Positions 1,580-21,828 of a DNA stretch of 23,202 nt are shown one piece after another. Within the stretch, counting starts at the first letter, position 1. Each line of letters starts with the position of its first letter. The DNA lies in the IMG/VR virus record IMGVR_UViG_3300044613_000702, positions 1-23,202 of that record, one strand, 5' to 3'. Under the pieces are notes generated by a model. The model was not told the origin of the DNA, did no database searches, and saw nothing but the letters and a program-made list of their open reading frames with translations. Position numbers and translations under genes: made by a program. This DNA is from a virus.

Positions 1580-2221
1580 TTAAATAGAATTTATCTTGTT
1601 TTGTTCAAAATTGTCATTGTCGTATTGCACCAAGTCCACGCCACCTGCAACAACGGTCTGCGGCTGTGTTGCCCCTGCATTACGTACCTCATCCACGCCG
1701 CCAATTACTTCTTCGATTCCTAATTCATCAACGGTCGGGATGCTGCAACTGTTCTCATATCCGTATGCAATCTTGATGCGCATATTCAATACCCACCCAT
1801 TAAGGCTGTCCTCGAATCGGTCTGCAAATGGTGTCATCGTCACGCTTTCATCCAGTTTGAACTCTTTTTCATCAGCAGATTCTTTACTCAATAATCCGAC
1901 CACATCCTGCGCCACAAGTTGCAGGTCGCTATATATCTCGAAGTCGTTCTTCTCCCCATCCGTAACCAAGTCTGCAAGTATCACTTGAAAACTGAAATAC
2001 ATCGCCCTGCCTTGTATGGATGAATCAATGACATTGAACCACATCAGCGGATAGGTCGGCTGTGATGTGATTGTACTCTTGTCAGGCATACCGCCATATA
2101 ATAACTTGCGAAAGGTCACATCATACAGACTGCCTATCCCGAAGCTATTTATCTGCCTGTGCTTTTCTGCTATGCTTTTTAGCGACCTTATCAGTCGGTT
2201 GATGCTGTACTTTGTCTTCAC
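1580..2221 (-). CDS. Head-tail/tail completion-like structural protein with C-terminal repeat tail
   Basis: A 213-residue protein starting with GTG (2221); an in-frame TAA two codons upstream rules out a longer start. The stretch with HRQINSFGIGSLYDV, then a PLMWFNV segment and a conserved beta/alpha core to about residue 160, resembles a small structural protein often found in Bacteroidetes phages near the connectors. A tail terminator or tail completion role is likely but unproven. Residues 169-206 carry two copies of a 19-residue repeat (GGVDEVR type) also found at the C-terminus of the baseplate-like protein at 12147-14636; this tail is probably an addition to the core. A possible 45-aa gene overlaps the first 77 bp in another frame, so the true start is somewhat uncertain. 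Confidence 0.6.
   Translation of the reverse strand: MKTKYSINRLIRSLKSIAEKHRQINSFGIGSLYDVTFRKLLYGGMPDKSTITSQPTYPLMWFNVIDSSIQGRAMYFSFQVILADLVTDGEKNDFEIYSDLQLVAQDVVGLLSKESADEKEFKLDESVTMTPFADRFEDSLNGWVLNMRIKIAYGYENSCSIPTVDELGIEEVIGGVDEVRNAGATQPQTVVAGGVDLVQYDNDNFEQNKINSI
1581..1589 (-). promoter_or_regulatory. TTCTATTTA leader motif of fibre B
   Basis: TTCTATTTA on the coding strand ends 5 nt before the ATG at 1575. It also supplies the first two bases of the upstream gene's TAA stop. The same 9-mer with the same spacing precedes the genes starting at 5152, 9971 and 15841. Its role, a translation initiation signal or a promoter element, is not known. Confidence 0.55.
1604..1717 (-). repeat. Two 19-residue GGxDxV repeats at C-terminus
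   Basis: Codons 169-187 (IEEVIGGVDEVRNAGATQP) and 188-206 (QTVVAGGVDLVQYDNDNFE) form a tandem repeat with GG-to-GG spacing of 19 residues. The same motif and period occur at 12168-12281 in an unrelated protein. DNA around the GGVDE core is also similar between the two loci (for example ctcatccacgccgcc versus ctcatccacgccacc on the plus strand). Confidence 0.7.
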
Positions 2222-2282
2222 GCTTTAGTTCGTATTTGATTAGCTTCTGAATGTTTTTGTTAGATGTCCGTTTGTTCACCAT
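2145..2282 (-). CDS. Possible small basic protein, 45 aa
   Basis: An ATG at 2282-2280 opens a 45-codon frame ending in TAG at 2147-2145. The start overlaps the stop of the connector gene as ATGGTGA, the kind of overlap used elsewhere in this operon, and the frame fills the 54-bp gap before the next gene's GTG start. The product is very Lys-rich and contains IQKLIKYELKRED followed by VAKKHSRKAQADK. No family is recognised. Against it: the last 77 bp overlap the next gene in another frame, and short open frames arise by chance. It could be a real basic virion or assembly protein. Confidence 0.35.
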   Translation of the reverse strand: MVNKRTSNKNIQKLIKYELKREDKVQHQPTDKVAKKHSRKAQADK

Positions 2283-2851
2283 TTACGCTTTTTGTATGGT
2301 TCTTGAAATCGGGGAATGCCTGCCCTATCAATGAAGTCATTGTCGCCATCGTCAAGCAGCATGCCGCTGAAGTAGTTCTGTATGTTCGGTTGTATGTCGT
2401 CGCCTGCATCGTTGCCGTTCTCATATTCGGGGAATAAGGTGCTGTTCTCGCATAGATATGCCGTTATGCGTTCTGCGTACCATTGCGCCCTGTTCTGCCA
2501 CCAGTCAATGACATCCTTAACATCCTGCATCGATACCTGTGTGCTTGTTTCGCTCACCTTAGTCATTATTCCCTTGTTCAAGTAGCGCACGCTGATATAC
2601 ATCGGCGAATCAGCAAGTATATAAGCAATCATACAACGCTGTATGTAGTCGTTCATTAAGGTCAGGTAATTGCCTGCCAATGTACCTGCAACGACATCCG
2701 ACTTCAACTTGTTGTACAACTCCGTGCCCAGTATCGGGTGGATGCGCTGTTCTTGCACATCGTCAATCAACTGACCAAGCACCTTGTAATCGATGTTGTC
2801 GCTTAATACGCTGTTGTTCTTTAGGTCTGCTTCTGATATGAATCGTACCAT
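2276..2851 (-). CDS. Head-tail connector-like structural protein
   Basis: A 191-residue protein directly downstream of the portal gene (8-bp gap). The N-terminus (FISEADLKNNSVLSDNIDYKVLGQLIDDVQEQRIHPILG) and the following helical segments with LYNKL and YLTLMNDYIQRCMIAYIL match a conserved Bacteroidetes phage protein usually found between portal and tail-completion genes. The mostly alpha-helical N-terminal half resembles gp6-type adaptor proteins, which form the ring under the portal. The C-terminus is acidic and then ends in a basic KKRKW. Function is inferred from position and helical character; the family resemblance is by eye. The stop overlaps the ATG of the possible 45-aa gene. Confidence 0.6.
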   Translation of the reverse strand: MVRFISEADLKNNSVLSDNIDYKVLGQLIDDVQEQRIHPILGTELYNKLKSDVVAGTLAGNYLTLMNDYIQRCMIAYILADSPMYISVRYLNKGIMTKVSETSTQVSMQDVKDVIDWWQNRAQWYAERITAYLCENSTLFPEYENGNDAGDDIQPNIQNYFSGMLLDDGDNDFIDRAGIPRFQEPYKKRKW

Positions 2852-2859
2852 CTTATATC

Positions 2860-4803
2860 TTATTTATCAATGATTAAAACTTGTTCCCACGTATGCCTGC
2901 AATAAGGTACGTGTAATAACCCTGCCGTGTCGGGTACTGTGTACCATCCGCCTTTCATTCGCCATACGTCATACCCGAATATAGCACTCATCCTGTCTAT
3001 GTCCTGCTTGCTGTATAACTTCTTGCGCTGCATCATCTTTTGGCAGAACTCACGACTTTCACCGCCTGCGCTTAATGGTGGCGCATCGCTCCTTAACGCA
3101 TAGCGATACATCGTCGTGATGCTCGGTATCTTGCCCTGTGGCGTGATGCCATCCGTACCCCTTGCCGTTGGCGTGCGCAGTATCTGTCCATCACGTTCTG
3201 ATTGCTTCAACCTGCCATCAGTGGTCATCTGTTCGATTAGGTTCTTGATGCGCTCTGTTTTCTCACGTATCGCCTTTGCAATATTCTCGATGCTGATGTC
3301 GGGTGTTTCTTGAAGTATCTTCAATATTTTATTTTCAAGCAAGTCTTTTTCAACGAACTGCTCGGCTTCATATACGCTGTTGAAATGTTGCCTTACCACC
3401 TTGACAATCGTCACGCTGTCCTCATCAATTCCGAATGTAGCAGCTATCTCAAGATGCTTCTTCCAATCCTTTGAATCTTTAGCAAATTCATCCATTGTGC
3501 TTTCGCCAAGCATCATATCGATGTCGGCATCGGTTAAGCCATATCCACCACGCAGCATAGTAACTGCCTGCTCATACGTCAATACGCCTTTGCCATATTT
3601 GTTTATGATACGCATCACGTTCTGCATCTGCCTGCCTGTAAGGTTGCGCAACGCATCATTGACCTGTGCCTGTTGTGCCTGCTCTTGTTGTTGCTCGGCT
3701 GCTACTTCCTGCTGTGCAGGTGTAATCGGTTCAGTTGGTATGATTGCAAACGCATTCGATATGCCTGTGATGTTCTCTGCGTGATAGTTGATTATCTTTT
3801 CAACAATCTGCTGCCTGCCGTTCACGTACGTGTTCTTGAATAACTCATACGCATCAAGCATCTCTGTTCTGCCACCCAGTTGACCCTCGACGCGTACACC
3901 CATAAGCATAGGGCTTACAATCTGATGCCCGACAAATATCTCTTGCAGCACGGTCTTGTTTAATATCTCGAACTTGGTATCGCTGTCATCGGGTTCCAGT
4001 GATTCGATTACAGGTGCTGCATCTTTGTTCGGCACGAAGTTCAACACGAACTTGCCTGCATTGTCCGTGCCTGCCTTTGTGTACTTGAACTGCTTACTTA
4101 TCGCACGCATCTCTTCTGCGGTCGGCTGTTGTGCAATGAAAGTAATTACCTTGCCGCCCCAAAATCCGTTCTTGATGTTGTTCAGATGGTAGTTGCTGAT
4201 TTCAATATCCGTTTCTATGTAAGGAATGCAACCGATGTAGTTCGGTATTGGATAGACCTTTGAGCCTGGTCTATACACCTTGTAATAAAATATCTGCCTG
4301 CCTTTGCGCTTGGTTATGTCAAATGAAGGATATTCAATGACTTCAGGCGTGTTGTATTGCGCCCATTGTGGGCTGTAATAGAAACAACTGCCATCCACAT
4401 TCGACCGCACATTCTTGAACTCCAATACTTTCATCTCATACGATGTACCTGCCCGATTCCATATACATTCAATCGCACAACCATTATACAACTCCAAGTC
4501 TGTAATCAGTTGGTAGGTGAACTCATTCATCGACTGCCATCTGTTCACGCTGTCGTATAATGCCTGCACCCTTGCATCTTGAACCTGCACCTCTACACCC
4601 TGCCCATATACATAGGTAATCTTTGAATTGACAATCGCATTGTGCTTCGCAGAACGATTGTATAGTTCAATCAAATAGTTCGGATATAGATTGTCCTCAC
4701 CATACGTCACATATCCATCACGTGGTCGCTCGATGTTGACTGGTATCTTGTGTGCTTCAAGTTGCACCTCATATAGGCTCGCCTTATCAGTTGTTTTTCT
4801 CAT
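2860..4803 (-). CDS. Portal protein with long C-terminal extension
   Basis: At 647 residues this is longer than most portals (about 450-520). Residues 1-370 look like an SPP1/HK97-type portal: GYVTYGEDNLYPNYLIELYNRS, AIVNSKITYVYGQGV, and a region with QEIFVGHQIVSPMLMGV and GRTEMLDAYELFKNTYV. It would form the dodecameric DNA-entry ring of the procapsid. A Gln/Ala-rich hinge follows at about 367-385. Residues about 470-550 contain a winged-helix-like stretch (KILKILQETPDISIENIAKAI). The last 80 residues carry SREFCQKMMQ, a GGW motif and CRHTW, resembling the Cys/His tail of MuF/gp7-type minor head proteins. It overlaps the upstream 121-aa gene by 17 bp. The portal call is solid; the meaning of the extension is inferred. 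Confidence 0.8.
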   Translation of the reverse strand: MRKTTDKASLYEVQLEAHKIPVNIERPRDGYVTYGEDNLYPNYLIELYNRSAKHNAIVNSKITYVYGQGVEVQVQDARVQALYDSVNRWQSMNEFTYQLITDLELYNGCAIECIWNRAGTSYEMKVLEFKNVRSNVDGSCFYYSPQWAQYNTPEVIEYPSFDITKRKGRQIFYYKVYRPGSKVYPIPNYIGCIPYIETDIEISNYHLNNIKNGFWGGKVITFIAQQPTAEEMRAISKQFKYTKAGTDNAGKFVLNFVPNKDAAPVIESLEPDDSDTKFEILNKTVLQEIFVGHQIVSPMLMGVRVEGQLGGRTEMLDAYELFKNTYVNGRQQIVEKIINYHAENITGISNAFAIIPTEPITPAQQEVAAEQQQEQAQQAQVNDALRNLTGRQMQNVMRIINKYGKGVLTYEQAVTMLRGGYGLTDADIDMMLGESTMDEFAKDSKDWKKHLEIAATFGIDEDSVTIVKVVRQHFNSVYEAEQFVEKDLLENKILKILQETPDISIENIAKAIREKTERIKNLIEQMTTDGRLKQSERDGQILRTPTARGTDGITPQGKIPSITTMYRYALRSDAPPLSAGGESREFCQKMMQRKKLYSKQDIDRMSAIFGYDVWRMKGGWYTVPDTAGLLHVPYCRHTWEQVLIIDK

Positions 4804-5152
4804 ATATCGTATTGGTATTATTTACTTGATGTGCAGTTATTGTGCTGCGTTGCCAAATTACTAAAGCCAAGCCACGTTCAAGGACTTGACCTGCTCCTGT
4901 TAGTACCGTGTATTCGTGATAGCCTAAGTCAAGGTTTACTTCGCCATTCGCTGCAATCGGATTTGTCGTGTCCTTTATCGTCAGCAGGTTGTATCGCTTC
5001 CTGTAATTGCTGATGTCAACCACGTTGCACTGATTGACTTCGTTTGTCTGCTTCGATTTGAATTGAATAACGAAATTCGTTTCGTCGTAGTCGGTCATTT
5101 CGCTTGCAGTGACCACCACCGTTGAATTGCCGTTCTTCTGCATTATTATCAT
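4787..5152 (-). CDS. Conserved phage protein of unknown function, 121 aa
   Basis: A small protein with no recognised catalytic motif. Predicted character is mostly beta: an N-terminal segment (GNSTVVVTASEM, then FVIQFKSKQTNEVNQC) and a later pair of strands (GEVNLDLGYHEYTVLTG and LALVIWQR). It has no signal peptide or membrane segment. A second in-frame ATG at 5143 is possible, but ATG 5152 is preferred because it carries the TTCTATTTA leader 5 nt upstream. It is the first gene after a strong terminator and overlaps the portal start by 17 bp, so it probably heads a portal-connector transcript or depends on readthrough. A virion role is likely from position; nothing more can be said. Confidence 0.55.
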   Translation of the reverse strand: MIIMQKNGNSTVVVTASEMTDYDETNFVIQFKSKQTNEVNQCNVVDISNYRKRYNLLTIKDTTNPIAANGEVNLDLGYHEYTVLTGAGQVLERGLALVIWQRSTITAHQVNNTNTIYEKNN

Positions 5153-5157
5153 ATAAG

Positions 5158-5166
5158 TAAATAGAA
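5158..5166 (-). promoter_or_regulatory. TTCTATTTA leader motif of the 121-aa gene
   Basis: TTCTATTTA on the coding strand, 5 nt before the ATG at 5152. It lies just downstream of the terminator at 5181-5218. This is the only motif copy whose surroundings are not squeezed between two coding regions. Confidence 0.5.
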
Positions 5167-5180
5167 TATTGGCAAAAGTG

Positions 5181-5218
5181 TAATAAATAAAAATGCCCCA
5201 CCATTACGGCAGGGCATT
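5181..5218 (-). terminator. Strong rho-independent terminator after the capsid genes
   Basis: On the coding strand an 11-bp stem (AATGCCCTGCC / GGTGGGGCATT, two G-T wobbles) closes a 5-nt loop (GTAAT) and is followed by TTTATTTATTA. It begins 22 nt after the stop of the 173-aa structural gene and lies between that gene and the 121-aa gene. It probably limits transcription after the highly expressed capsid genes. Confidence 0.85.
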
Positions 5219-5239
5219 CTACAAAATCTATGAAATAAT

Positions 5240-5761
5240 TTATGCAGGTAACAATAGTGCGGCAATGATGCCTGATGCAACTTCTTTCGCAGGCAGTGGT
5301 TCTTTGCCAGTGAACTCTAATTCGTATCCATTTCGGTCGTCAATTAGCTTACCGAATGTCGCAGTACGGTTGATAAGGTTCAAGCCGTAGCCTTCGCCAT
5401 ATAACCAGTATTTGTCATTGGAATCTTTAACGATGATGCAGACACGATTCTTCGCAACGATGTACAACTCATTGCGCTTGTTCGTTTCTTGCTTGTATAA
5501 CGGTATCTTGACAGACTGCTCGTGCGCAATAGTGCCATTCTCGGGCTTCTTGATTGCATTCTCTGACACCTCGCCCTGCTCTGAATATAACTCGTATGTC
5601 CAGAACTGCTTGCCGGATGCCATTGTGATTGCAGTGATTGCGCCTGTTACCGTTGTAACTGCTGTTACGTTATTGAACTCGGTGATATATATTTCTTTTA
5701 CACCACCTGCATTATCGCCTAAGCAGTCAAGACTGAAACCTTGTGTTAGTAAACAACTCAT
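5240..5761 (-). CDS. Virion structural protein, beta-rich (tail tube or head decoration candidate)
   Basis: A 173-residue protein starting MSCLLTQGFSLDCLGDNAGG, followed by VKEIYITEFNNV. This N-terminal pattern recurs in abundant structural proteins of Bacteroidetes phages. The body alternates beta segments (AITAITMASGKQFWTYEL, then a stretch beginning NELYIVAKNRVCIIVKDS) and ends in a hydrophobic IIAALLLPA. The family is often near the major capsid or tail genes, so a major tail tube or capsid-associated decoration protein are both possible; I cannot choose between them. The gene follows the capsid gene by 25 bp and is followed by a strong terminator, consistent with high expression. Cysteines 3 and 13 are notable but their role is unknown. 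Confidence 0.55.
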   Translation of the reverse strand: MSCLLTQGFSLDCLGDNAGGVKEIYITEFNNVTAVTTVTGAITAITMASGKQFWTYELYSEQGEVSENAIKKPENGTIAHEQSVKIPLYKQETNKRNELYIVAKNRVCIIVKDSNDKYWLYGEGYGLNLINRTATFGKLIDDRNGYELEFTGKEPLPAKEVASGIIAALLLPA

Positions 5762-5786
5762 AATAGTAAGGTGGTTTTAAGTGATG

Positions 5787-6728
5787 TTAAGAATTTGAAT
5801 ATTCAACGATTTCAGATGGGAATGCAACCTGCCATCCACGACGATAACGGAATGAATATTTCACGTTCTGGTCGTCTTGGCTGTACCACATTTCTGCTGC
5901 TTCTTCTTCGTTAAGCAAGTCAACGCCTAAGAATAAGTTGCGGTCAGGGTCCATCGCAAAGATGAACGGATTGTCACCGCTGTTTGAACCAAGTCCATCA
6001 AGACCGTGAACAGGTATGATTTCGTGTACTGAACCTTCAGCAAATATGTTCTTCTGATTGCCGCCCACAGGGAAGTGGAACAAGTTGTCGATGAACATCT
6101 TTTGGCGATACAATTCAGCGATGTCATATCCGCAGAATATTTTCACACCTGCATTACCTTTCAACTGAACAGGAATCTTCGCCACCACGTTCTGCATGAT
6201 AGTGCGCACGTTTGATGTGGTCACTGGTCCTGCAACCGCAGTCGCTACATTCGTACCCGTTGCAGCCTTAATGATTTTTGTCAAACCATCATAGATTGAC
6301 AAGTATGCAGATGTTGAAGTCGTGTCGCCCTGCCAGTCAGCAGTTTCTTGATGCTTCTTAATCTGCTCAACGATGTCAGTCACAATCTTTGCAGGTATGT
6401 CTGATTCGGTGTACTTCTGTCCGTTCTTTAACAGTATCTGTGTCCACTTAGCTTCAAGTGTACGAGGACAAAGTGTGTCCTGATACTTAACCGCTTTAGC
6501 GTCTATCTCACGCTGCGTGAATGCAGTAGTTCCTGATGCAAGGAATGAACAACCATCACCTGACTGTGGAATCGGTGTGTTGGTTAAAATTTGCAAAGCC
6601 ATTTTGCTCTTAACACCTACTTGCACGTTTGCCAATGCAGCGGTTTCTGATTCGAAGTGTAAGGCTGTGAGCAGCTCCTTACTGGTTTGGTTAACGTAGT
6701 CCGTTAACGATGAAACTGAAAATGCCAT
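5787..6728 (-). CDS. Major capsid protein (HK97-type fold, Bacteroidetes phage type)
   Basis: A 313-residue protein that begins only 1 bp after the scaffold gene and follows the protease and scaffold, the classic order for a capsid module. The N-terminus (FSVSSLTDYVNQTSKELLTALHF) leads into a core with CPRTLEAKWTQILLKNGQ, a probable E-loop/spine-helix region, then an alpha/beta P-domain (MQNVVAKIPVQLKGNAGVKIF). The C-terminal part has DNPFIFAMDPDRNLFLGVDL and KYSFRYRRGWQVAFPSEIV, typical of capsid A-domain ends. Length fits a compact HK97 subunit. Context and pattern make this the best capsid candidate in the window; no other large protein competes for the role. Confidence 0.8.
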   Translation of the reverse strand: MAFSVSSLTDYVNQTSKELLTALHFESETAALANVQVGVKSKMALQILTNTPIPQSGDGCSFLASGTTAFTQREIDAKAVKYQDTLCPRTLEAKWTQILLKNGQKYTESDIPAKIVTDIVEQIKKHQETADWQGDTTSTSAYLSIYDGLTKIIKAATGTNVATAVAGPVTTSNVRTIMQNVVAKIPVQLKGNAGVKIFCGYDIAELYRQKMFIDNLFHFPVGGNQKNIFAEGSVHEIIPVHGLDGLGSNSGDNPFIFAMDPDRNLFLGVDLLNEEEAAEMWYSQDDQNVKYSFRYRRGWQVAFPSEIVEYSNS

Positions 6729-6729
6729 G

Positions 6730-7338
6730 TTATTTAGTTTTTATTGTTTTTAATGTGGTTAGTATTGAATCGATTTTTTGTTGCTTCTTGTCCTTTGCTG
6801 TGGTGAACTGCTGATTTTCTTTTTTCAGTTCTGCTGTTGGCAGGTCGCCTATCTTCTCAATCAGTTCAAACATCTGCTTGTTTGTTTCTTGTTGCTTGCT
6901 GATTTCGGTTTCAATAGCAGACATCTTTGCGTTGATAGCATCCATCAGTTCCTTTAACTTCTTGCCCATATCTTCTTCTTCTTTCTTTGGGTACATACCT
7001 GCTTCTGTTTCGGCAGGTGTTGCAGGAAGCACAGGCTCGATGGCTGTGATAAGTCCGTTCGCTGTGGTTACCTTTGTGCCATCTTCAAGTTCGTGCGTTC
7101 CATCAGGCGCAGGGTTAGTGCCTTGCTCCGTTACGACCATAAGCGGATAGCCCACTTCAAGTTCGTCATACGTTATCATAGTGCCATCTTTCAGCTTGCC
7201 CTCGCCCATCATCTTTTCTTCTTCTTTGGTTTTTTCTGTGGCTTCAGGCATAGCTTCGCCAAGCCCTAACAGGATGCGCATCTTTGCGAATTTTTCTTCG
7301 CCGATTAGTTCTTTTATTGATTGTTTGATATCTGACAT
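6730..7338 (-). CDS. Capsid scaffold / assembly protein
   Basis: A 202-residue, highly charged protein between protease and capsid genes. Residues about 46-110 hold a small domain with GKLKDGTMITYDELEVGYPL and an EDGTKVTTANGLITAIEP motif. Residues about 118-190 form a long Lys/Glu/Gln-rich helix (GKKLKELMDAINAKMSAIET and onward) with strong coiled-coil character, as in phage scaffolds. It should act inside the procapsid and be removed or cleaved during maturation by the upstream XkdF-like protease. The ATG at 7338 directly abuts a stable hairpin (7340-7370), which may control its translation. The scaffold call rests on position, charge and coiled coil; the family pattern is by eye. Confidence 0.7.
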   Translation of the reverse strand: MSDIKQSIKELIGEEKFAKMRILLGLGEAMPEATEKTKEEEKMMGEGKLKDGTMITYDELEVGYPLMVVTEQGTNPAPDGTHELEDGTKVTTANGLITAIEPVLPATPAETEAGMYPKKEEEDMGKKLKELMDAINAKMSAIETEISKQQETNKQMFELIEKIGDLPTAELKKENQQFTTAKDKKQQKIDSILTTLKTIKTK

Positions 7339-7339
7339 A

Positions 7340-7370
7340 GCAGGTTGTTTCTAATAAATAGAAAACCTGC
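7340..7370 (-). promoter_or_regulatory. Hairpin abutting the scaffold start codon
   Basis: An inverted repeat with arms GCAGGTTGTTTCTA (7340-7353) and TAGAAAACCTGC (7359-7370), plus strand, around the 5-nt loop ATAAA. The stem has 12 bp with a 2-nt bulge. It ends one base before the scaffold ATG (7338). On the coding strand no T-run follows, so it is not a normal terminator. It may occlude the start, mark an RNA processing site or set the scaffold-to-capsid ratio. Confidence 0.65.
7355..7363 (-). promoter_or_regulatory. TTCTATTTA motif inside the scaffold hairpin
   Basis: The same 9-mer found 5 nt before four other starts. Here it lies 16 nt from the ATG and is split between the hairpin's 5' arm and its loop. 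Confidence 0.4.
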
Positions 7371-7378
7371 ACAGGTGT

Positions 7379-8404
7379 TCAACTTAGCACATCTTTCAGC
7401 TTGTTGATGACCTGCTCATCCGTTGCAGTTATCAACTTCTTTAAGAAGAAACCCTCTACGCTGAAACCTTTGAATGTGCCTGCCTTTATTAAGTTCCACA
7501 CCTCGTCATTCTCTATCTTATACGAACCGAACCAACTGCCATCGGGTATGTTGTCGAAGCCTGTCGGTGCTGTTATGCCACGCTGTTTGTCGATGATGAA
7601 GCTCTCGAACATATACACGCCCTCTACCTGCTGACCGTTGTGCATCAAGTTCACCGAATGTTGGAATCCATCCTTGTGGTACTTCATTACAAGCTGCTCA
7701 ATAGTCGCTGCATCGAATACGACATAGAACTCGAAGCCATCCGCCCCCTTGCGATATATAGGCAGGTTGGCAATCATAAGCGGACCAGTTACTATCCTGC
7801 GTTCTTCATTTTGCACTGCAAATTTCAACTTCTGCTCACGGTCTATTTGTTCAAGTTTACGCTGCGCCCATTCGATACCTGCATCGCCACCCCACGCAAG
7901 CCACATCAACCGACCACAACCATCGCCAAGTTCTTTCTGTGAATTTTGTCTGTGCCGCTCAAATGCTGCCATACGTGCAATCGTGTCACGGCTGATAGGT
8001 TCGCCCTTTGCAAGTTGATTCGCCCTTGCCTTGCCTACTGCTGTGCCACAATCGCCCCATCCATTTTCTTCTGCCCAACGCAATGCCACCTTTGCATTCT
8101 CTGATGCCTGCTTCGGATAGTCGTCATAGCTGTCTTGGAATTGCTCCGACATCCCTTTATTCTCATACATACTGATGCACATCGCAATGGCTTGGTCTTG
8201 CTCCTTGCCCTCGTCAATCATTGCAGGTATGCAGCGGCTTAAAAATTCTGACTGCGTTTCGCCTGCCTGTGGCTCGATGAATATCTCTGCATTGAACTTC
8301 ATCCACATCCGCTCGATAGCAGGTTGGTCAACTAAGGCAACGGCGTTCAATCCTGTATCGCTATTGTCGTCAATTATCATCTTGTAAATTGGGAACTTAT
8401 CCAT
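7379..8404 (-). CDS. XkdF-like prohead serine protease with internal insert
   Basis: A 341-residue protein. The N-terminus (FPIYKMIIDDNSDTGLNAVALVDQPAIE) and the C-terminal half (RRIVTGPLMIANLPIYRKG through FKGFSVEGFFLKK) match XkdF-type phage head maturation proteases. Likely catalytic residues are H255 (NLMHNG) and S315 (GFSVEG). These enzymes cleave scaffold and capsid N-termini in the prohead. Between the two halves, about residues 48-195, lies an insert with two parts: SEFLSRCIPAMIDEGKEQDQ followed by AIAMCISMYE, and a helical Trp/Cys-containing part (ALRWAEENGWGDCGTAVGKA ... CGRLMWLAWGGDAG). Similar segments occur in other phage head proteins, but their function is unclear. The gene overlaps the tape measure stop by 8 bp and precedes scaffold and capsid. 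Confidence 0.8.
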   Translation of the reverse strand: MDKFPIYKMIIDDNSDTGLNAVALVDQPAIERMWMKFNAEIFIEPQAGETQSEFLSRCIPAMIDEGKEQDQAIAMCISMYENKGMSEQFQDSYDDYPKQASENAKVALRWAEENGWGDCGTAVGKARANQLAKGEPISRDTIARMAAFERHRQNSQKELGDGCGRLMWLAWGGDAGIEWAQRKLEQIDREQKLKFAVQNEERRIVTGPLMIANLPIYRKGADGFEFYVVFDAATIEQLVMKYHKDGFQHSVNLMHNGQQVEGVYMFESFIIDKQRGITAPTGFDNIPDGSWFGSYKIENDEVWNLIKAGTFKGFSVEGFFLKKLITATDEQVINKLKDVLS

Positions 8405-9971
8405 ATAGTGCTTTTGTTTTTATGTCTGTAATTCTGTTTTGTGATGTGCTGATATCATCTTCAAGAACATACGCCTTAATCGGTTGCTGCCCTTGTTCTT
8501 GTCCTTGTGGAATGATTGTGCCTTGTGGGTTGAATACTGGTATCGTCGGTGCTGTTAGCGTTGCTCCACCTGCTCCTGCGCTTCCGCCGCCCTGCAATGT
8601 TGGTGGTGTTGATGTGCCTGCCTTTGATAATAAGGCACTTGCTTTGGCAATGTTACTCACAACCAATGCAATACCTGATGCAATGGCTGCTGCCTTTTCA
8701 ATCGGCGTAACACCTACTTTTGAACCATCACGAACCATCTGTGATATGGCAATGGCAGTATCTAACAATATCTGTGTTGCTGCGATTTTCTTTTGAAACT
8801 TCTCACGCTGCGCCTCATTCTTTATCGCTATGTTGCCAAGTGATGCCAATGCGTTCAACCCACTCTGTGCAATGCTGAACTTTGCATCCGCTGCCCTTTG
8901 TGCATTTGCGATTTCTTCTGCATCTAATTTTTCAGTCGCATCCTTTTGTCTTTTTTTTGATGCAATGACGAAGTTCGCTATTGCTTCAGCAGTCAACACT
9001 GGTGCTGAATTTTCAGGCGCAGTGACACCTGTCACGGTTTTAGTTCCTAATCCTCCAATTTCAACATCACCCCTGCCTGCCTTTAATGCAGCATCACGTT
9101 TCGCTTCTTCTTCATTTATTTTTTTTAATATATCGAAATACCTCTGACTGCCAATAACAGTATTTTCAAGTTCTTTATTGTAGTTAGCAATGGTTGCGTT
9201 ATATGCAGCCGTTGAACCTGCAACAAGGTCAATATTTTCTTTTGTCTTCTTAAGTTCTGTATTTACCTCTTTCTGCTTTTTCTCAACTTCAGTTGATGTT
9301 GTTACCCAGTTGACTAATTTCTTTGCTCCATTTTCAATAGTGCCGATAAACTTTCCTATGAATGGAATGTCCTTTAATGTGTCTAAGAATCCTTGTATTG
9401 CAAGTTTTACCTTTTCAAAATTGGCTATCAATGCCCCAAGTGCGACCGTTACCAACCCTATGCCCGTTGATGCAAGTGCTATCCTGAACAATTTCAATGC
9501 GCCTGTTGTGCCGCCGACTACTGTTGCGTATGCTGATTGTGCTGTGGTCAGTGCAACAGTCTTGATGATGCTCGCCTGCTTCAATCCATCCGCAATAGAT
9601 TGTGTAGCCTGCAATAGTGCCGTTGCTGATTGAACCTTAACAAGTGTAGCTTCAAGGTCTTCATTCTTTGTGCCGAATAACGCCGTTGCAGATATAGCCG
9701 CTGTCAATCCACCTGCCACCGTTTGACCGAATGCAGCGAATGCCTGCGCCTTTGCTCCCGGATCAAGTGCATTGATTTTCTCTTGCAAATCTTTTACTTG
9801 GTCACGTGCTTCGGCTGCTTTCTTTGCATACGTATCTGATAGCGCTTTGTTGCCTGCCTTATCCGCTTCCAATGCCGCCGCCGTTAGGTTCTTAATCTCC
9901 TGACGTGCTTCCTTAAGCGCATTCGTGCTTGCCCCTGTGTTGACCTTTACATCTAATACTACTTCTGCCAT
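8397..9971 (-). CDS. Tail tape measure protein
   Basis: A 524-residue, mostly helical protein. Residues 1-75 begin VVLDVKVNTGASTNALKEAR, followed by an Ala/Lys/Glu-rich coiled coil, the usual tape measure opening. A hydrophobic segment follows at about 160-186 (ALASTGIGLVTVALGALIAN), then a coiled-coil block with EVEKKQKEVNTELKKTKENI, and a late Ala-rich hydrophobic region (KAAAIASGIALVVSNIAKAS). It ends in a Gly/Pro/Gln-rich tail. Tape measures set tail length and act in the tail lumen and during DNA injection; 524 residues suggests a fairly short tail. It carries the TTCTATTTA leader. It lies downstream of the fibre and baseplate genes rather than just after the chaperone, which is unusual. 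Confidence 0.8.
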   Translation of the reverse strand: MAEVVLDVKVNTGASTNALKEARQEIKNLTAAALEADKAGNKALSDTYAKKAAEARDQVKDLQEKINALDPGAKAQAFAAFGQTVAGGLTAAISATALFGTKNEDLEATLVKVQSATALLQATQSIADGLKQASIIKTVALTTAQSAYATVVGGTTGALKLFRIALASTGIGLVTVALGALIANFEKVKLAIQGFLDTLKDIPFIGKFIGTIENGAKKLVNWVTTSTEVEKKQKEVNTELKKTKENIDLVAGSTAAYNATIANYNKELENTVIGSQRYFDILKKINEEEAKRDAALKAGRGDVEIGGLGTKTVTGVTAPENSAPVLTAEAIANFVIASKKRQKDATEKLDAEEIANAQRAADAKFSIAQSGLNALASLGNIAIKNEAQREKFQKKIAATQILLDTAIAISQMVRDGSKVGVTPIEKAAAIASGIALVVSNIAKASALLSKAGTSTPPTLQGGGSAGAGGATLTAPTIPVFNPQGTIIPQGQEQGQQPIKAYVLEDDISTSQNRITDIKTKALYG

Positions 9972-9976
9972 ATCAT

Positions 9977-9985
9977 TAAATAGAA
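9977..9985 (-). promoter_or_regulatory. TTCTATTTA leader motif of the tape measure gene
   Basis: TTCTATTTA on the coding strand, 5 nt before the ATG at 9971, in the 18-bp gap after the 127-aa gene. Confidence 0.55.
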
Positions 9986-9989
9986 AATA

Positions 9990-10373
9990 TTAAGAAATGA
10001 ATTGCAATATCTCGAGTGCCTTGTCCTTACGTGCCACCGTGTAATATGTCGTCTGTGCATATCCGTTCGTCGTGAAGTTCGTTGACCAAGCAGAATCCTG
10101 ACCGTTATCGAACCATAAGCGCAATCGTGGTGAACCGATACGCCAGTCATCAACGTGGTTGCGTACTGCATTGATTAGATTCACATACTGCTGCGTGGTT
10201 AGTTCTGCTTTGAAATATTCAAATAGTTCTGCAATCTGAAAGTTGCGCACTTCCTCATACTTATTATCTGCAAGCACCTCAACGGTTGATAGTATGTCGT
10301 TATCGTAATATTGAATCACGTTGCGAACTGCTCCGCTTGGTATTGTTTCTGTTGTTAGTCTTACTGTTATCAT
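9990..10373 (-). CDS. Unknown small tail-region protein, 127 aa
   Basis: I take ATG 10373 as the start because it overlaps the fibre A stop as ATGA; an upstream start would extend the frame into the fibre gene. The 127-residue product opens with beta strands (MITVRLTTETIPSGAVRNVI), then helices (FQIAELFEYFKAELTTQQYV) and a Trp/Asn-rich C-terminal part. There is no signal peptide or membrane segment. No family is recognised. Its place between a fibre and the tape measure and its likely coupling to fibre A fit a fibre-associated or fibre-assembly protein, but this is inference only. Confidence 0.55.
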   Translation of the reverse strand: MITVRLTTETIPSGAVRNVIQYYDNDILSTVEVLADNKYEEVRNFQIAELFEYFKAELTTQQYVNLINAVRNHVDDWRIGSPRLRLWFDNGQDSAWSTNFTTNGYAQTTYYTVARKDKALEILQFIS

Positions 10374-12145
10374 CTGAAATATAGTGCTACAATTAAAAAT
10401 ACGTTTGTTGGATTTGTCGCCCAAGTAGGTGTTGTGAATTTTAACTCGAAATAATCGCCCGAAACAAACGATGCACCCGATAACCCTGTTGCCTGTACAT
10501 ATACGTTTGCCGCATTCATCAATACGCCCGTTGATATAGTGTAATCTGTCGTGTTGTTTTTTCTTATTGCCAACGTGCCTGATTCACCAGTTCCGATTGT
10601 ACCTGCTACCCTGACCATTATCGATGCCGCAATCAACTCGAATGATGCAGCTACATAATGCCTACGTGCCGCCGCCGTTGTACCCCAATCCAATGATGCA
10701 GATAAGTCACCTGCATAGTAATTCGTCGCATCTAATGGGTTGAATGCCGTTGGTGCGATTCTGTGCATGAACACGCCCGACTTCTGATTGAATGTCGTCC
10801 AATCCGTTGATGACAATGCACCCCTATTAGTTGATGATGCAGTGGGTATGTTGATTGTAATCGTGCCGCTTGTCGTTATTGGCGAACCGCTGATATTTAT
10901 GTCGCTCCCTGTCGTGCCTGCTGCAACTGCTACCGATGTGACCGTGCCGCTTGTTAATGTCGGGAATGTCTTGTTTTTCCATAACCCCGATGACGTTTCA
11001 TATTGCAGGATGTCGTTGTTCGCTGCGCTTGTTATCAGTACATCGTGCAATTCGTCAAGTTCATATCCGTTCTGTGGCTTAACGTAAATCTGACCATTAC
11101 CTGCATTCGCTCGTTCTACTATACCAATATATACAAGGTGGTTCGGGGCAACTGGCTTCGTTGCAGTTAAAGTGCCTGCCGTAGCACCTAAGTATAACTG
11201 GTCACCTGCCGTATAAGCTGATGTGTTTACGCCCGATATTACGCCCTGCGTTATGATGAAACCTCTTTGATTAGCACCTATGCTCGAACTGAATACAACA
11301 CCGACCGTTTGCGCTGAAGTTGCATCTCCAGTATTCGATGCTAACTTAACGCTCATTCGATTGCCCTGCGCACCAAAGGCATATACTGGCTGTCCTTTGT
11401 TTATAGTTACAGAATCAGCATTGGTGACATAAGCAAATAATTGATTCGGCGCAACACCTATCATCTGAAAGTTAGTGCCATCATATATCAAGATAAACTG
11501 CTGCCCTGCTTCAATGTCGCCCCCTGTTACCTGAATATTCAACTGCTTCACTAATGTCTTTGCCCCAAGTCCGTTTATGTTGATAGTCGAATCATCATCA
11601 TTTGCATTGGTGAACTTAACTGCATATACATCCCCCTCTGTATATGATGCCACTCCCGATATGGTTACCGTGTATGTGTTCGTGCCTGATGCTACGCCAT
11701 AAGATACACCACCATCGATTGTCCACGTTCTGTCTGCTGACAAGTCCTGCGTGTCGCCGTTAATCGTTATCGTTCTTGTCGTAGGTACGCCACCCGATGC
11801 ACCGCCACCGCCCGTACTCGCTGCCCACGTTGGAACACCGCCACTGCTTACCGTTAACACCTGCCCCGATGTGCCTATCGGTAATCGCTGCCAAGTGCCG
11901 CTCCCTACATAGTATAGGTCGCCTGTTGCAGAATTGTTGCGTGTAATCAGGAACTCACGTATGCCTGCATTCATACGCATCCATACCTTGCTGTCTGCTA
12001 CGTTCGCCATTATCTCGCCCTCATATATGTCCGTTGCAGTCCACGTTCCATCCGTGAAGTCGCTTGTCGGTCCTGCCGTTGGTACAACACCAGTCACAGT
12101 GCTGTACTTCTGTATCATCTTGCTGTCTTGTATATTGATTGGCAT
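10370..12145 (-). CDS. Tail fibre/receptor-binding protein A
   Basis: A 591-residue Gly/Ser/Thr-rich virion protein. Residues 3-107 are the attachment domain shared with fibre B. A Gly-rich linker follows (about 110-122), then typical fibre shaft motifs: TITINGDTQDLSADRTWTI, GYELDELHDVLI, SGTVTSVAVAAGTTGSDINI and ASSTNRGALSSTDWTTFNQK. The last ~140 residues form a beta-rich tip. These motifs recur in Bacteroidetes phage fibres; the order fits an N-terminal anchor, a shaft and a C-terminal receptor-binding tip. Its ATG comes 1 bp after the baseplate gene stop, and an AGAGGA stretch upstream could be a Shine-Dalgarno-like site. The exact receptor is unknown. Confidence 0.75.
   Translation of the reverse strand: MPINIQDSKMIQKYSTVTGVVPTAGPTSDFTDGTWTATDIYEGEIMANVADSKVWMRMNAGIREFLITRNNSATGDLYYVGSGTWQRLPIGTSGQVLTVSSGGVPTWAASTGGGGASGGVPTTRTITINGDTQDLSADRTWTIDGGVSYGVASGTNTYTVTISGVASYTEGDVYAVKFTNANDDDSTININGLGAKTLVKQLNIQVTGGDIEAGQQFILIYDGTNFQMIGVAPNQLFAYVTNADSVTINKGQPVYAFGAQGNRMSVKLASNTGDATSAQTVGVVFSSSIGANQRGFIITQGVISGVNTSAYTAGDQLYLGATAGTLTATKPVAPNHLVYIGIVERANAGNGQIYVKPQNGYELDELHDVLITSAANNDILQYETSSGLWKNKTFPTLTSGTVTSVAVAAGTTGSDINISGSPITTSGTITINIPTASSTNRGALSSTDWTTFNQKSGVFMHRIAPTAFNPLDATNYYAGDLSASLDWGTTAAARRHYVAASFELIAASIMVRVAGTIGTGESGTLAIRKNNTTDYTISTGVLMNAANVYVQATGLSGASFVSGDYFELKFTTPTWATNPTNVFLIVALYFR
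11825..12145 (-). repeat. Fibre N-terminal domain, copy A
   Basis: Counterpart of 1240-1575. The two domains align without gaps over 105 residues. In both places the preceding gene ends in the same 19-residue repeats, so the duplicated block spans a gene boundary. Confidence 0.8.
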
Positions 12146-12146
12146 A

Positions 12147-14636
12147 TTATCCTCTTATTATGTGAATGTTTGATGTCGCTGCAAGGCTTCGCACTTCATC
12201 CTTACCGCCCACCACTACGTTATAGAATGAATCAGCAGCGATGTTGCGTATCTCATCCACGCCACCGATTACAAGGTTGTAATTGACAAGGTTATCAATC
12301 GGGTTGTCTGTGTCGCCTGCAACGAATGGTGTACCTACTTTGATTTTCAGAAATTCGCACTTTGTCACCTGCGCATTAATCGGATTATAGTTCTCAATCT
12401 TGTTAAGCCTGTAATAGGAATTGTCGATGAAATACTTCACGCTGAAATCAAGGTCACGTATGTCCTGCGGTGTTAAATACAACCACATCTTGACAATCTT
12501 TGAATCCTTATCCGTTATTTCAGATATGTATTGGCTCCAATATTTGTTATATAGATTGTTTGTTGTGTATATAGCAGGATTGTCGAACTTCCATCCCACT
12601 TGATTAGGTATGCCGAACAATAAATCCATTGTAGGCTGTTGTGCATCGTCAAGGTGTAATGCCTGCGGATAGTACGTATATGATGTGCCTGTCGACGTGT
12701 TGAACTTCTTAAACAATCCAATCTTGTTAGGCGCAATATCAATCTTTCCGTTGTGTGATAATATTCTTATTTTCTGCGCAAATGGTTCTGGTTTGTTGAA
12801 GTCGCCTTTGAAATACTGCGAAATAATTACACTGCCCGATTCTATGCCATGCGTTGATGCAAATACTAATTCGATTTTTTGTTGTTGCGTAACAAAGTCA
12901 TTGTCGATGTTTATAGTCCGTTCGCCATATACCTGCGACCACTTCGCTGTGTATTTTTCATTAGCTATGTCAACATCGCTTGTGTATGTCCAAAGAAACT
13001 GCCTGAAGTCAAGTTCGCCCATCGGGTATATCTCAATCTGCCTGCTGTTATCCAATTTCATTGTCCAGTCCAACACATCATTATCCATAAAGTCATTATA
13101 TGGCTCAATGATTAGGTTATTAGCATCGTCTTTATCAACATCAATGTAAAGGTTGAACATCTTTACAAGGCTCATTAAGAAGTCAACCTGCTTGATGTTT
13201 GCGTGCAGGTTAGATTGTAAGTTTATTAATGATACCGTATGCTCATCTGTCGAAACGCTCCAAGTGTTTTCTAAATCAGAAACAACAGAATTGAACTGCA
13301 CCCTTTCAACTGAAAGCGTATTGATAATATCTGTATTGTTTTTATTTACAACCATATTACCGTACACGGCTGATATGTCAGTTGTTTCACTATAACTTAT
13401 TGTGATGCTTCCACCTGTAAGAACACGAACCTCATTACCTGAATCTGATTGTGTGTTGTCTAATTGCAGATATACCAAGTCGCCATATTCAACTTCAAAT
13501 TCAATGTCTATGTTTTGTGTAATAGCAGGGTCTGAACCAAGTCCTGCTATTGTGATTGAATCAATTATATTCTCTAAATCTGTACAGGCAGGTTTATGTA
13601 TAAGTTGAAGAAATGCAAGTGTTTCAATTGTCGGGTTGCTTGAATTTATTTTTGTTTCAACTTCTATCTGAACACGTATCTTATGCTTTGCCCTGCGTTG
13701 GAATGGGATGATAAGGTTCTTAAACATTTGTGAGTTTAAGAATGTCGATGTATATGTAAATCCAACGCTACTGAATATCAAATCAACAAGCTGCTTCGCA
13801 TATACTGCCCCTCTTATCGTTGGAAGTTCAAAGTTTATAGATGTGCCTGTCGCTTGTGCATAGCCATCATATATCAATGGATAGGTGTACCCCTCACCGA
13901 TTGGCTGTCCGTTTGGGAATTGTGTCGTTATACTACCTGTGAAGTTGTCGTAATTGCTGCCGTTCTTCTGAACCTGCGTAAACCAACTATCAGTGATGTT
14001 GGTCTGGTTCACAATGTGGTTATAGTCTGAAAGGTCTATGTCACGCAGTTGCTTGTTGCCTATGCTATTAAAGAAACTGCCTATGCTACCGAATACAGAT
14101 ATTTCGTATTCAATAAAGTCACGTGTGCGGTTTATCTGAAGCAACTGCATCACACCCCTGAACTGCTCTATCGTGTCAATCTCAATGTATGCAAGTGCCT
14201 TGATGTTAGGATTGAAGCTGCCATCAATGTCAATCTCGAAGATGCTGCCGAATAGTGCGTTGTTCGTGTCTGTGCCTGGTATCCTTACGGTCTTGCTGAA
14301 TGAACCGTTCCTCTTGTCAGGATTGCGTATGTCTGCAATGTTATAGGTCAGCGTGAATGGAATGTCATCGTACAAGTCCACCTCTACATATTCAAGATAA
14401 AAGAACACGCCGCTCTGACTTGTCGGCACGGATGCGTTCAATGTAAGGCTCTGCGTTGTGCCGTTGGCTGATAATATCTTGCGCTCGATGTCGCCTGTGC
14501 TTGTCCTGAAGATTATCGTCTTGCCGTTGTCGGCTGACGTGAAGTTCGTGCCACTGCCTTGTACCGATATGCTGCCTGCCGATAATGTTACCGTGCCACG
14601 CCTGTTAGGTGATATATATAATTGCGTTCTGCTCAT
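12147..14636 (-). CDS. Large tail/baseplate protein with C-terminal repeats
   Basis: An 829-residue structural protein. The N-terminal ~85 residues are beta-rich (RRGTVTLSAGSISVQGSGTN). The next block, with VDLYDDIPFTLTYNIADIRN, KRNGSFSKTVRIPGT, NNALFGSIFEIDI and an IEQFRGVMQLLQI motif, is a hallmark of a large tail protein common in Bacteroidetes phages, often annotated as a baseplate or tail-tip component. The long remainder has mixed alpha/beta segments and ends at about residue 785 in two 19-residue repeats (GGVDEIR, GGKDEVR). The start overlaps the stop of the 402-aa tail gene as ATGA. It probably forms the tail-tip hub, with fibre A attached; this is inferred from gene order and family. 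Confidence 0.65.
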   Translation of the reverse strand: MSRTQLYISPNRRGTVTLSAGSISVQGSGTNFTSADNGKTIIFRTSTGDIERKILSANGTTQSLTLNASVPTSQSGVFFYLEYVEVDLYDDIPFTLTYNIADIRNPDKRNGSFSKTVRIPGTDTNNALFGSIFEIDIDGSFNPNIKALAYIEIDTIEQFRGVMQLLQINRTRDFIEYEISVFGSIGSFFNSIGNKQLRDIDLSDYNHIVNQTNITDSWFTQVQKNGSNYDNFTGSITTQFPNGQPIGEGYTYPLIYDGYAQATGTSINFELPTIRGAVYAKQLVDLIFSSVGFTYTSTFLNSQMFKNLIIPFQRRAKHKIRVQIEVETKINSSNPTIETLAFLQLIHKPACTDLENIIDSITIAGLGSDPAITQNIDIEFEVEYGDLVYLQLDNTQSDSGNEVRVLTGGSITISYSETTDISAVYGNMVVNKNNTDIINTLSVERVQFNSVVSDLENTWSVSTDEHTVSLINLQSNLHANIKQVDFLMSLVKMFNLYIDVDKDDANNLIIEPYNDFMDNDVLDWTMKLDNSRQIEIYPMGELDFRQFLWTYTSDVDIANEKYTAKWSQVYGERTINIDNDFVTQQQKIELVFASTHGIESGSVIISQYFKGDFNKPEPFAQKIRILSHNGKIDIAPNKIGLFKKFNTSTGTSYTYYPQALHLDDAQQPTMDLLFGIPNQVGWKFDNPAIYTTNNLYNKYWSQYISEITDKDSKIVKMWLYLTPQDIRDLDFSVKYFIDNSYYRLNKIENYNPINAQVTKCEFLKIKVGTPFVAGDTDNPIDNLVNYNLVIGGVDEIRNIAADSFYNVVVGGKDEVRSLAATSNIHIIRG
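12168..12281 (-). repeat. Two 19-residue GGxDEx repeats at C-terminus
   Basis: Codons 786-804 (YNLVIGGVDEIRNIAADSF) and 805-823 (YNVVVGGKDEVRSLAATSN) are a tandem pair with a 19-residue period. The same motif and period occur at 1604-1717. Confidence 0.75.
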
Positions 14637-15841
14637 CGTGTTGCGTATTGCTGATAGCCATATTCCATATCGATAACTAACTGCGAAGCACCATCATTGA
14701 CCGACTTACGCACCTCGTATGTGTTCGTGTTGATTTCAACTGGCACCAATGCACCATCCTCAACCGAATAGACCATCGGTGATGTAATTAGTTCCTGCAA
14801 CCAATCGAACTCTGCATCCGTTAGCCAATCCGAGTTCAACTGAACCGATTCTTTGCTCTCTACGTGGAATGTGGTCTTGCCCCTGTTCTTGATGTTCTGC
14901 GTGAACACGCCTGATGGGAATGTGTAGTCTGTCTTTTCGAATCGCTGCCGCTCTACCGTGATTGTTTCTCGTGAAACTTTTGTGAACTGCGCAGAATCGA
15001 AGCCGCCCCATCTGTTTTGAAACACAAGGTTGTAGGTCGTGTATGTGCATTCTGCATCCAGTATGTAATACGTGTATGTAAGGCTGTTGAAGTCGAAGCT
15101 GCTATCCAAAGCAGTGACCGTGTAATATGCCACGTTGTTAGTGATTATCGGTGTGCTGCCTGTTAAGGTAACAATCGTATTGTTCGCTATGTTGCCACTG
15201 CCAATCGGTACTCGCAGGAATTGATTCGTTAAGCCTGTCACCGTGTTGTTCGTGTTGGTCAGTCTGTATGTGCCAAGACCTACGCCTGCGCTGTTGTATG
15301 TCGCTATATATAACGCTGCCACGTCATTCGTTTGCTCTTGTATCATATAAAGCCAAGCATACGAACCTCGTGTATGCCTGAATGTCAACGGCGTGGTTAA
15401 GAACTTTGCCGATGCGTTCTGATTGATGCAGCGTGTGGTCGTGTCAAAGTTGATGAAGTCACGATAAGGGATGGATGCGTTCCATAGCCTTAATGTGTCG
15501 CTCGTCACGTCCAATGTCTGTGTAGTGCCGTACTCTTCGCCCACCTTGACCTGTACGGATGCACGCATATTCGGGCAGTTGTTGAAGCCTGTATCTGCAT
15601 ATTCTATGTCGTGGCTGATGTAACTATCCACAATGCGATGCAGGTCTATTGCTCCATATCCGTTCGGCATAGGCGACTTCTTGACCGTTGCCTGCAATGT
15701 GCCGTTGATGAATATCTGATATATGTGCCTGTAACCTGTCTGCACGTTGTTCGTTCCTGATACGGTAAGGAAGCACGGATTGTGTGTCGGTGCGAAGTTG
15801 TGCGTGGTCGTGTAGGGCTTGTCTATTATCGTGATTGCCAT
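14633..15841 (-). CDS. Tail protein, distal-tail/baseplate-like, 402 aa
   Basis: A 402-residue, beta-rich protein. The N-terminus (PYTTTHNFAPTHNPCFLTVSG) and a following domain with YRHIYQIFINGTLQATVKKS resemble a Bacteroidetes phage tail protein usually found just upstream of the large baseplate-like gene. The middle (about residues 170-260) is an Asn/Thr-rich beta region with repeats of TNNT/NNTI type. The C-terminal half has FQNRWGGFDSAQF, a GKTTFHVESKESVQLNSDW motif and WLQELITSPMVYSVEDG. It has the TTCTATTTA leader and is coupled to the next gene by ATGA. A distal-tail or baseplate role is likely; a more exact assignment is not possible. Confidence 0.6.
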   Translation of the reverse strand: MAITIIDKPYTTTHNFAPTHNPCFLTVSGTNNVQTGYRHIYQIFINGTLQATVKKSPMPNGYGAIDLHRIVDSYISHDIEYADTGFNNCPNMRASVQVKVGEEYGTTQTLDVTSDTLRLWNASIPYRDFINFDTTTRCINQNASAKFLTTPLTFRHTRGSYAWLYMIQEQTNDVAALYIATYNSAGVGLGTYRLTNTNNTVTGLTNQFLRVPIGSGNIANNTIVTLTGSTPIITNNVAYYTVTALDSSFDFNSLTYTYYILDAECTYTTYNLVFQNRWGGFDSAQFTKVSRETITVERQRFEKTDYTFPSGVFTQNIKNRGKTTFHVESKESVQLNSDWLTDAEFDWLQELITSPMVYSVEDGALVPVEINTNTYEVRKSVNDGASQLVIDMEYGYQQYATR

Positions 15842-15846
15842 ATTGT

Positions 15847-15855
15847 TAAATAGAA
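15847..15855 (-). promoter_or_regulatory. TTCTATTTA leader motif of the 402-aa tail gene
   Basis: TTCTATTTA on the coding strand, 5 nt before the ATG at 15841, in the 19-bp gap after the gp10-like gene. Confidence 0.55.
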
Positions 15856-15860
15856 ATAAG

Positions 15861-16511
15861 TTATTGTCGTTTGAATGTGGTCAGCGCAATCTCTAACTTC
15901 TTGCCCAGTCGTTTCTCGGTTTCCTCACGTAATGCCGCTATGCTCTGGTCGTTGATTACGCTGCTGAAGAAGTTAGTCGCCCTGATACCTCTGTCAATTA
16001 TCTTGTTGCGTATAGCGTATGCAATGCTGCTGTTGATGTTGCGTACTGCTGCTCCCGATTGTGTTGTGCTTGTGCGTATCTGTATCGGCTTCTGCGAAAT
16101 CCATAGTTCAAGGCTGTTCTGAAACTTGCCGCCACTTGACTTCGGCTTCTGTGGGTAGGCGAATGGCGAATCAGCACTCTCGGGATACGTTGACTTGCGA
16201 CCTTTCACACCCTTGTCCACATACTTCCAATAGTCGTTCATCACAAGCTGCACCGATACCGTGTTGCCTGTTTCTTCCACGTTCACCTGCACGCTGTTAT
16301 ATAGGCTCTGTTGCCCTGTCTTGCTTGTCGCATTCAGGTTCTCTTGCACCTGACTTTTTACGGCTGTGATGAACTTGATTAGTATGTCCGTGATGCTGTC
16401 TTGTATGATTACCTGCGTGTCGCTTGTGTCCGTGATGCCGATGTCGGCTGCCTCGAACTTCGCCCACCTTTCTGCCTGTAATTTGTTTATGCCTTTCGGG
16501 ATTGTTGCCAT
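15861..16511 (-). CDS. HK97 gp10-like tail/head-tail joining protein
   Basis: A 216-residue protein. An N-terminal helical region (about 35-75) is followed by a beta segment with VQVNVEETGNTVSVQLVMND, then YWKYVDKGVKGRK. That pattern, a strand pair then 'YxxYVDxGVKG', is typical of gp10-type tail completion/minor tail proteins. A later helix (SIAYAIRNKIIDRGIRATNFF) also fits that family. These proteins sit at the neck or tail terminus. It follows the tail assembly chaperone; its ATG lies inside the 3' end of the chaperone's -1-frame extension, with a 25-bp overlap. The family call is by eye and moderate. Confidence 0.6.
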   Translation of the reverse strand: MATIPKGINKLQAERWAKFEAADIGITDTSDTQVIIQDSITDILIKFITAVKSQVQENLNATSKTGQQSLYNSVQVNVEETGNTVSVQLVMNDYWKYVDKGVKGRKSTYPESADSPFAYPQKPKSSGGKFQNSLELWISQKPIQIRTSTTQSGAAVRNINSSIAYAIRNKIIDRGIRATNFFSSVINDQSIAALREETEKRLGKKLEIALTTFKRQ

Positions 16512-21568: not shown

Positions 21569-21828
21569 TGCTTGGTGATGTATTTTGTTATGATGTACCC
21601 TGCAAACATCGATGTGAAGCACAAAGGTATTAATATTTCAAAGGATACGTGGTTGATGATGCCCAATGTCAGGCATACCCAAAATGATAGGCACTTCGTA
21701 CAATCAAAGGGCTTCATTCGTTTGATATTGAAGAACCACTTGAATGTCTGTACCACATTGCTCACAGGATAGATGGCTGCTGCAATGAACGGCGACAATA
21801 TCAATATCCATTCACGATGAAGTTCCAT
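21565..21828 (-). CDS. Small membrane protein with CxxC motif, 87 aa
   Basis: An 87-residue hydrophobic protein with a probable membrane segment at about residues 8-25 (ILILSPFIAAAIYPVS), a middle stretch KPFDCTKCLSFWVCLTLGII and a third hydrophobic segment (FEILIPLCFTSMFAGYIIT). The 'CxxCLSFW' motif in a small multi-pass protein recurs in phages of this group, but no activity is known to me. It overlaps the glycosyltransferase stop by 28 bp and the next gene by ATGA. A host-envelope role is possible, for instance alongside the glycan genes; this is inference. Confidence 0.6.
   Translation of the reverse strand: MELHREWILILSPFIAAAIYPVSNVVQTFKWFFNIKRMKPFDCTKCLSFWVCLTLGIINHVSFEILIPLCFTSMFAGYIITKYITKQ

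Follow-up and report, generated by a model that had tools for sequence, protein, structure and literature searches.

Phage-encoded sigma factors of the T4 gp55 and SPO1 gp28 types switch late genes. In the T4 late genes soc, e and I-TevI, the promoter lies inside a hairpin at the start site (PMC2988022). In bacteria, leaderless genes carry a −10 box (TANNNT) some 12 bp ahead of their start codon; such genes occur mainly in Actinobacteria and Deinococcus, and in one of 37 Bacteroidetes/Chlorobi genomes (Zheng 2011, PMC3160421). In Flavobacterium psychrophilum, leaderless mRNAs amount to 5.5%, the promoters mostly give transcripts with leaders, and the −7 box spans −12 to −5 (PMC9723704), while in F. 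johnsoniae 4 or 5 nt separate the −7 box from the start site (PMC6847099).

Here we analyse a phage locus with a related arrangement. The motif TTCTATTTA is most likely the core of the virion-gene switch of this freshwater phage. Like the TANNNT genes (PMC3160421), the locus has a putative promoter box at a fixed, short distance from the ATG (4–6 nt before the start codon, first base about 12 bp away) and a leader predicted to be missing or very short; unlike them, the box marks late genes of one phage family and is specific to each lineage. With the Bacteroidota promoter TAnnTTTG (PMC9723704, PMC6847099) it shares a box 4–5 nt from the presumed start site and part of the sequence, whereas host genes mostly have leaders and the phage box differs in sequence and drifts.

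Results

The window and its relatives

The window, that is, the whole stretch of DNA analysed, is a 23.2-kb IMG/VR virus record (23,202 nt) carrying genes for terminase, portal and head-maturation protease. The gene at 5787–6728, here termed MCP, had matches to just two families, one unannotated and one of virion structural proteins, and no relative of the capsid protein was found in the annotated phage collection. Through capsid relatives 79 loci were found, and also longer relatives of 24–37 kb. Because six relatives lie within bacterial genome records of Chitinophaga, Chitinophagaceae and Mucilaginibacter, the host is very probably a member of the Bacteroidota. Two fibre-like genes of the window, at 625–1575 (−) and 10370–12145 (−), share a related stretch (tblastn of one matches orthologues of the other at ~55–60% identity).

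A 9-mer at a fixed distance from start codons

TTCTATTTA occurs in five exact copies in the window, all on the coding (−) strand, with no further exact copy; 0.245 would be expected per window from 200 dinucleotide shuffles, the largest of which gave 2. A preliminary description of this DNA had placed the identical 9-mer exactly 5 nt before four ATGs, and the exact pattern TTCTATTTA-N5-ATG indeed returned all four (1575, 5152, 9971 and 15841, all −). Neither the opposite strand nor a reversed control pattern gave any match in the window. The motif thus stands at offset 5 upstream of 4 of the 25 gene starts; when the same upstream regions were shuffled 3000 times, no identical 9-mer exceeded a count of 1 at any one offset in 2731 shuffles, and the top count was 2 in the other 269. 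The fifth copy had been located inside a hairpin before the scaffold gene, and it is there (7355–7363, −, within 7340–7370). The same description called the four genes structural; only the gene at 1575 has a structural annotation, a weak tail-fibre match, and the other three are unannotated, though within the virion block. The boxes and neighbouring elements are as follows.

15869–15875 (−): candidate upstream element TTCAAAC, weak and uncertain; same place in G006, inside the upstream coding region
15847–15855 (−): TTCTATTTA, proposed late promoter −7/−10-like box, 5 nt before ATG 15841 of a 402-aa virion-block protein
9977–9985 (−): TTCTATTTA box, 5 nt before ATG 9971 of a 524-aa protein; kept in all close relatives with a varying spacer
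7377–7382 (−): uncertain −35-like candidate TTGAAC, 13 nt upstream of the box; partly coding, overlapping the upstream gene's stop codon
7355–7363 (−): TTCTATTTA box of the scaffold gene, displaced so that it lies 16 nt from the ATG; all close relatives have CTATTTA or TTCTATATA
5190–5220 (−): intrinsic terminator directly upstream of the next box; 14-pair stem, 6 GC pairs, T-rich tail
5158–5166 (−): TTCTATTTA box, 5 nt before ATG 5152 of a 121-aa protein; the positional counterpart has a box in all lineages examined
1603–1608 (−): uncertain −35-like candidate TTGAAC within the preceding coding region, 13 nt upstream of the box
1581–1589 (−): TTCTATTTA box, 5 nt before ATG 1575 of the tail-fibre-like gene, overlapping the upstream gene's stop codon

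The upstream element is weak in the window's own lineage, where a −35-like sequence is present at only two or three of the five sites and overlaps coding sequence. Scanning the window for sigma-70 promoters yielded no more matches than in shuffled sequence. The host sigma-A −7 consensus TAnnTTTG is matched by TTCTATTTA at 4 of 6 fixed positions, the final G being missing in all five copies.

Conservation in close relatives

Loss of the fixed-distance enrichment elsewhere had been named beforehand as grounds for giving up the motif, and the enrichment held: in 20 close-relative loci, 35 of 49 copies lay exactly 5 nt before the nearest ATG. Among the rest, one lay at 6 nt and 11, at 16 nt from the ATG, were the copy of the scaffold hairpin; the reversed control was never seen within 40 nt upstream of an ATG in these loci. 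The box was retained at the same starts while the spacer between box and ATG changed. The box of 15841 is kept in G001, G002 and G005 and reads TTCTATTTG in G006; other variants are N6 at one start (L011) and TTCTATATA in one lineage (L023/L024). In the longer records G005 and G006, the motif-N5-ATG pattern was confined to the virion block. Early genes there have A-rich upstream regions and a few carry the canonical TAHHTTTG (4/40 early versus 0/38 late genes in the two records; small numbers).

Lineage-specific boxes in distant relatives

Relatives that keep the genes without the motif would also have spoken against it. Distant relatives do swap the motif, but they carry a box of their own at nearly the same place, 4–7 nt before late-gene ATGs and partly at corresponding genes. 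In lineage B the layout is TTGACC-N16/17-CTATTTA-N4-ATG, with the TTGACC partner at several starts but not all. Among far relatives, CTATTTA stood exactly 4 nt from an ATG in 26 cases, and no other offset had more than 2; many of the 26 come from homologues that are nearly identical, and after removal of near-duplicates CTATTT stood at offset 5 in 7/11. Lineage C has GTATTTAT or GTATATAT at 4–7 nt upstream of ATGs, in most cases immediately behind an intrinsic terminator, and lineage D has TTGACA-N17-ATTATA or ATTTTA followed by N4/5-ATG, so that a bipartite −35/−10 layout is clear in lineages B and D. By itself, a 6-mer search did not bring out a clear box for lineage C, D or E. The boxes of C and D were picked post hoc, by eye and by pattern in upstream regions, and are therefore less objective than those of A and B.

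In the Mucilaginibacter prophage, TTATACTTA-N5-ATG occurs at three starts and once elsewhere in the ~7-Mb genome (3/4 sites in the prophage), and a Chitinophaga prophage has two TGATATATACAGTTG-ATG starts, the only such sites in its host genome. Genes of the prophages of Mucilaginibacter pedocola TBZ30 and Chitinophaga polysaccharea 1209 show the TTATACTTA-N5-ATG and GATATATACAGTTG-ATG forms. Separately, a near-identical stretch of ~30 bp (CAGAACGTCGATTTCTGATATATACAGTTGATG) precedes two distant genes of a Chitinophaga polysaccharea prophage (L127, starts 3728 and 11629).

As at 5152, the box in several cases closely follows an intrinsic terminator. In every lineage examined, the counterpart of that 121-aa gene, which precedes the portal, has a box, usually with a terminator upstream. 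Many boxes have a terminator ending directly upstream, so that there is room only for a promoter before the ATG. A scan of the viral-contig collection for TTGACC-N14..20-CTATTTA-N2..8-ATG gave mostly chance matches and no spacing preference; one locus clearly carried the family's capsid gene among at least 120 loci listed. Judged from the matches listed, the layout is specific to the family and not general. We found no description of these promoters in the open-access literature.

A divergent sigma-like protein

In most long genomes of the family, a gene for a predicted, divergent ECF-like sigma factor lies 3–5 kb upstream of the terminase genes; the N-terminal part of the protein resembles region 2, and the C-terminal part is a helix-turn-helix. 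The window holds the end of such a gene.

22980–23201 (−): C-terminal part of the sigma-like domain (region 4-like helix-turn-helix), cut by the window edge; 98.6% identical to residues 102–174 of the complete G005 protein
to 21801 (−): glycosyltransferase-like part in the same frame, following the sigma-like part (whole stretch 21801–23201)

The sigma-glycosyltransferase fusion is complete in L084 (9718–11418, +). Prophages L147 and L149 carry the two parts as separate genes next to each other. Between the fusion gene and the terminase, the window has a cassette of sugar-modifying-looking genes (18825–21308, −) whose gene content differs among relatives.

A profile built from the family found 16 homologous ORFs in the phage family, and homologues were present in 4/4 host-genome records tested, near the prophage in three. 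No homologue was found in the records G013 and G021, which may be incomplete. Pfam Sigma70_r2 matched 6/14 members and the PHROG sigma profile 7/14, below the curated cut-off; a Sigma70_r2 search of whole records likewise gave only sub-cut-off matches and missed most lineages, which the family-built profile recovered. A PDB sequence search with the sigma alignment returned nothing significant. In an AlphaFold2 model (pLDDT 73), the two helical parts aligned to sigma regions 2 and 4, respectively, and the structural neighbours were almost all sigma factors, at Z below 8 and Foldseek E above 0.05. Judged from the weak profile matches and this middling model, the family protein is likely a sigma factor; we found no description of the family in the open-access literature. 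A phage sigma-like gene together with a probable phage-specific late promoter recalls the T4 gp55 and SPO1 gp28 types, from which the present protein differs in its ECF-like two-domain build and, in the window's lineage, in its fusion to a glycosyltransferase.

The scaffold hairpin

The scaffold gene is preceded by a hairpin that holds its displaced box.

7340–7370 (−): hairpin GCAGGTTTTCTATTTATTAGAAACAACCTGC, whose end is 1 nt upstream of the scaffold ATG at 7338, with the box in the 5′ arm and loop

The predicted RNA fold has −13.7 kcal/mol (z −3.3), and relatives keep the stem with changed sequence. In all five sequence variants the predicted fold is a stem that reaches the AUG or stops right beside it, with energies of −10.6 to −19.3 kcal/mol and z of −1.3 to −5.8, and the box is retained in arm and loop, while RNA beginning inside the loop is predicted to be unstructured (−0.8 kcal/mol). 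At the scaffold starts of L122, L124, L126, L039 and L125, from several lineages, the box is also displaced from the ATG and leaves a short leader; a displaced box is likewise seen at some prophage scaffold genes.

A putative late promoter inside a start-proximal hairpin, as in T4, is seen here as a sequence layout conserved in relatives. In read-through RNA the hairpin would fold right up to the AUG, whereas the RNA start at the box would fall inside the hairpin, giving a late transcript that lacks the 5′ arm. By analogy with T4, we infer that the hairpin may lower translation of read-through RNA and that late transcripts may escape this. As at soc, e and I-TevI (PMC2988022), the late promoter would be placed so that late RNA is free of an inhibitory hairpin; unlike there, no Shine-Dalgarno site is present and the hairpin ends just before the AUG.

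Discussion

The fixed distance to the ATG, the TTGAC element 16–17 nt upstream, the adjoining terminators, the limitation to late genes and the lineage-wise change are all promoter-like, and we hold with high confidence that the box is a promoter. TTCTATTTA would be the −7/−10-like box of the late promoters, to which the phage-encoded ECF-like sigma factor would direct the RNA polymerase of the Bacteroidota host, and where the DNA would open. Transcription would begin 4–6 nt downstream of the box, at the A of the ATG or right next to it: given the 4–5 nt from box to start site in Flavobacterium, a spacing of N4/N5 puts +1 on that A. The late mRNAs would then probably be leaderless or nearly so, and it is fairly likely that the sigma-like protein is what reads the box. 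Taken as a whole, a scheme in which phage sigma and host RNA polymerase produce leaderless late mRNAs from TTCTATTTA promoters seems to us quite probable.

The preliminary description had preferred a phage-specific translation initiation signal, read in the mRNA just before the AUG, on the ground that a constant distance to the ATG argues for a role of the ribosome, and had offered a late promoter with very short leaders as its alternative. The distance is indeed strict, and in Flavobacterium an A at −6 acts as a positive determinant; however, the constancy needs no ribosome, because 4–5 nt is also the mapped distance from the −7 box to the transcription start there. The motif is absent from early genes, whose contexts are A-rich, the scaffold copy lies 16 nt away within a hairpin, TTGACC or TTGACA stands 16–17 nt upstream in relatives, the directly adjoining terminators leave little or no leader, and a sigma-like gene is encoded alongside. 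We therefore rejected the translation signal, which now appears very improbable, and the evidence came down on the side of the promoter.

A promoter of this kind might instead be read by the host primary sigma, perhaps with a phage activator, the phage sigma-like protein having another role. This is unlikely in our view: TCTATTTA does agree with TAnnTTTG at 4/6 fixed positions, and the counterpart of 15841 in G006 carries TTCTATTTG, but the host-type box is rare before early genes and missing before the late genes counted in G005 and G006 (small numbers, as given above), and the boxes drift from the host consensus by lineage (ATTATA, TTATACTTA), each lineage having its own diverged sigma-like protein. 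As for the scaffold hairpin, its stable stem, preserved by compensating changes, would suit an element for RNA processing or transcriptional pausing that has nothing to do with promoter escape. We regard that as possible but somewhat doubtful, since arm and loop keep the promoter box, RNA from the loop is predicted to be unstructured, and the same layout recurs at several T4 late genes (PMC2988022).

Because related prophages occur in cultured Chitinophaga and Mucilaginibacter strains, the model of a phage sigma acting on late promoters is directly testable. In its broadest form, towards which we lean slightly, a family of Bacteroidota phages would express its virion genes on leaderless mRNAs by means of a fast-diverging phage ECF-like sigma factor, with box and sigma co-evolving in each lineage and the sigma fused to a glycosyltransferase in one. 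If true, this would be a case of leaderless translation used systematically, in a phylum that has few leaderless mRNAs and makes no use of Shine-Dalgarno sites. It would also provide a late-gene switch that can be read from sequence in uncultured freshwater and soil Bacteroidota phages, and a natural series of diverged sigma/promoter pairs useful for studies of recognition.
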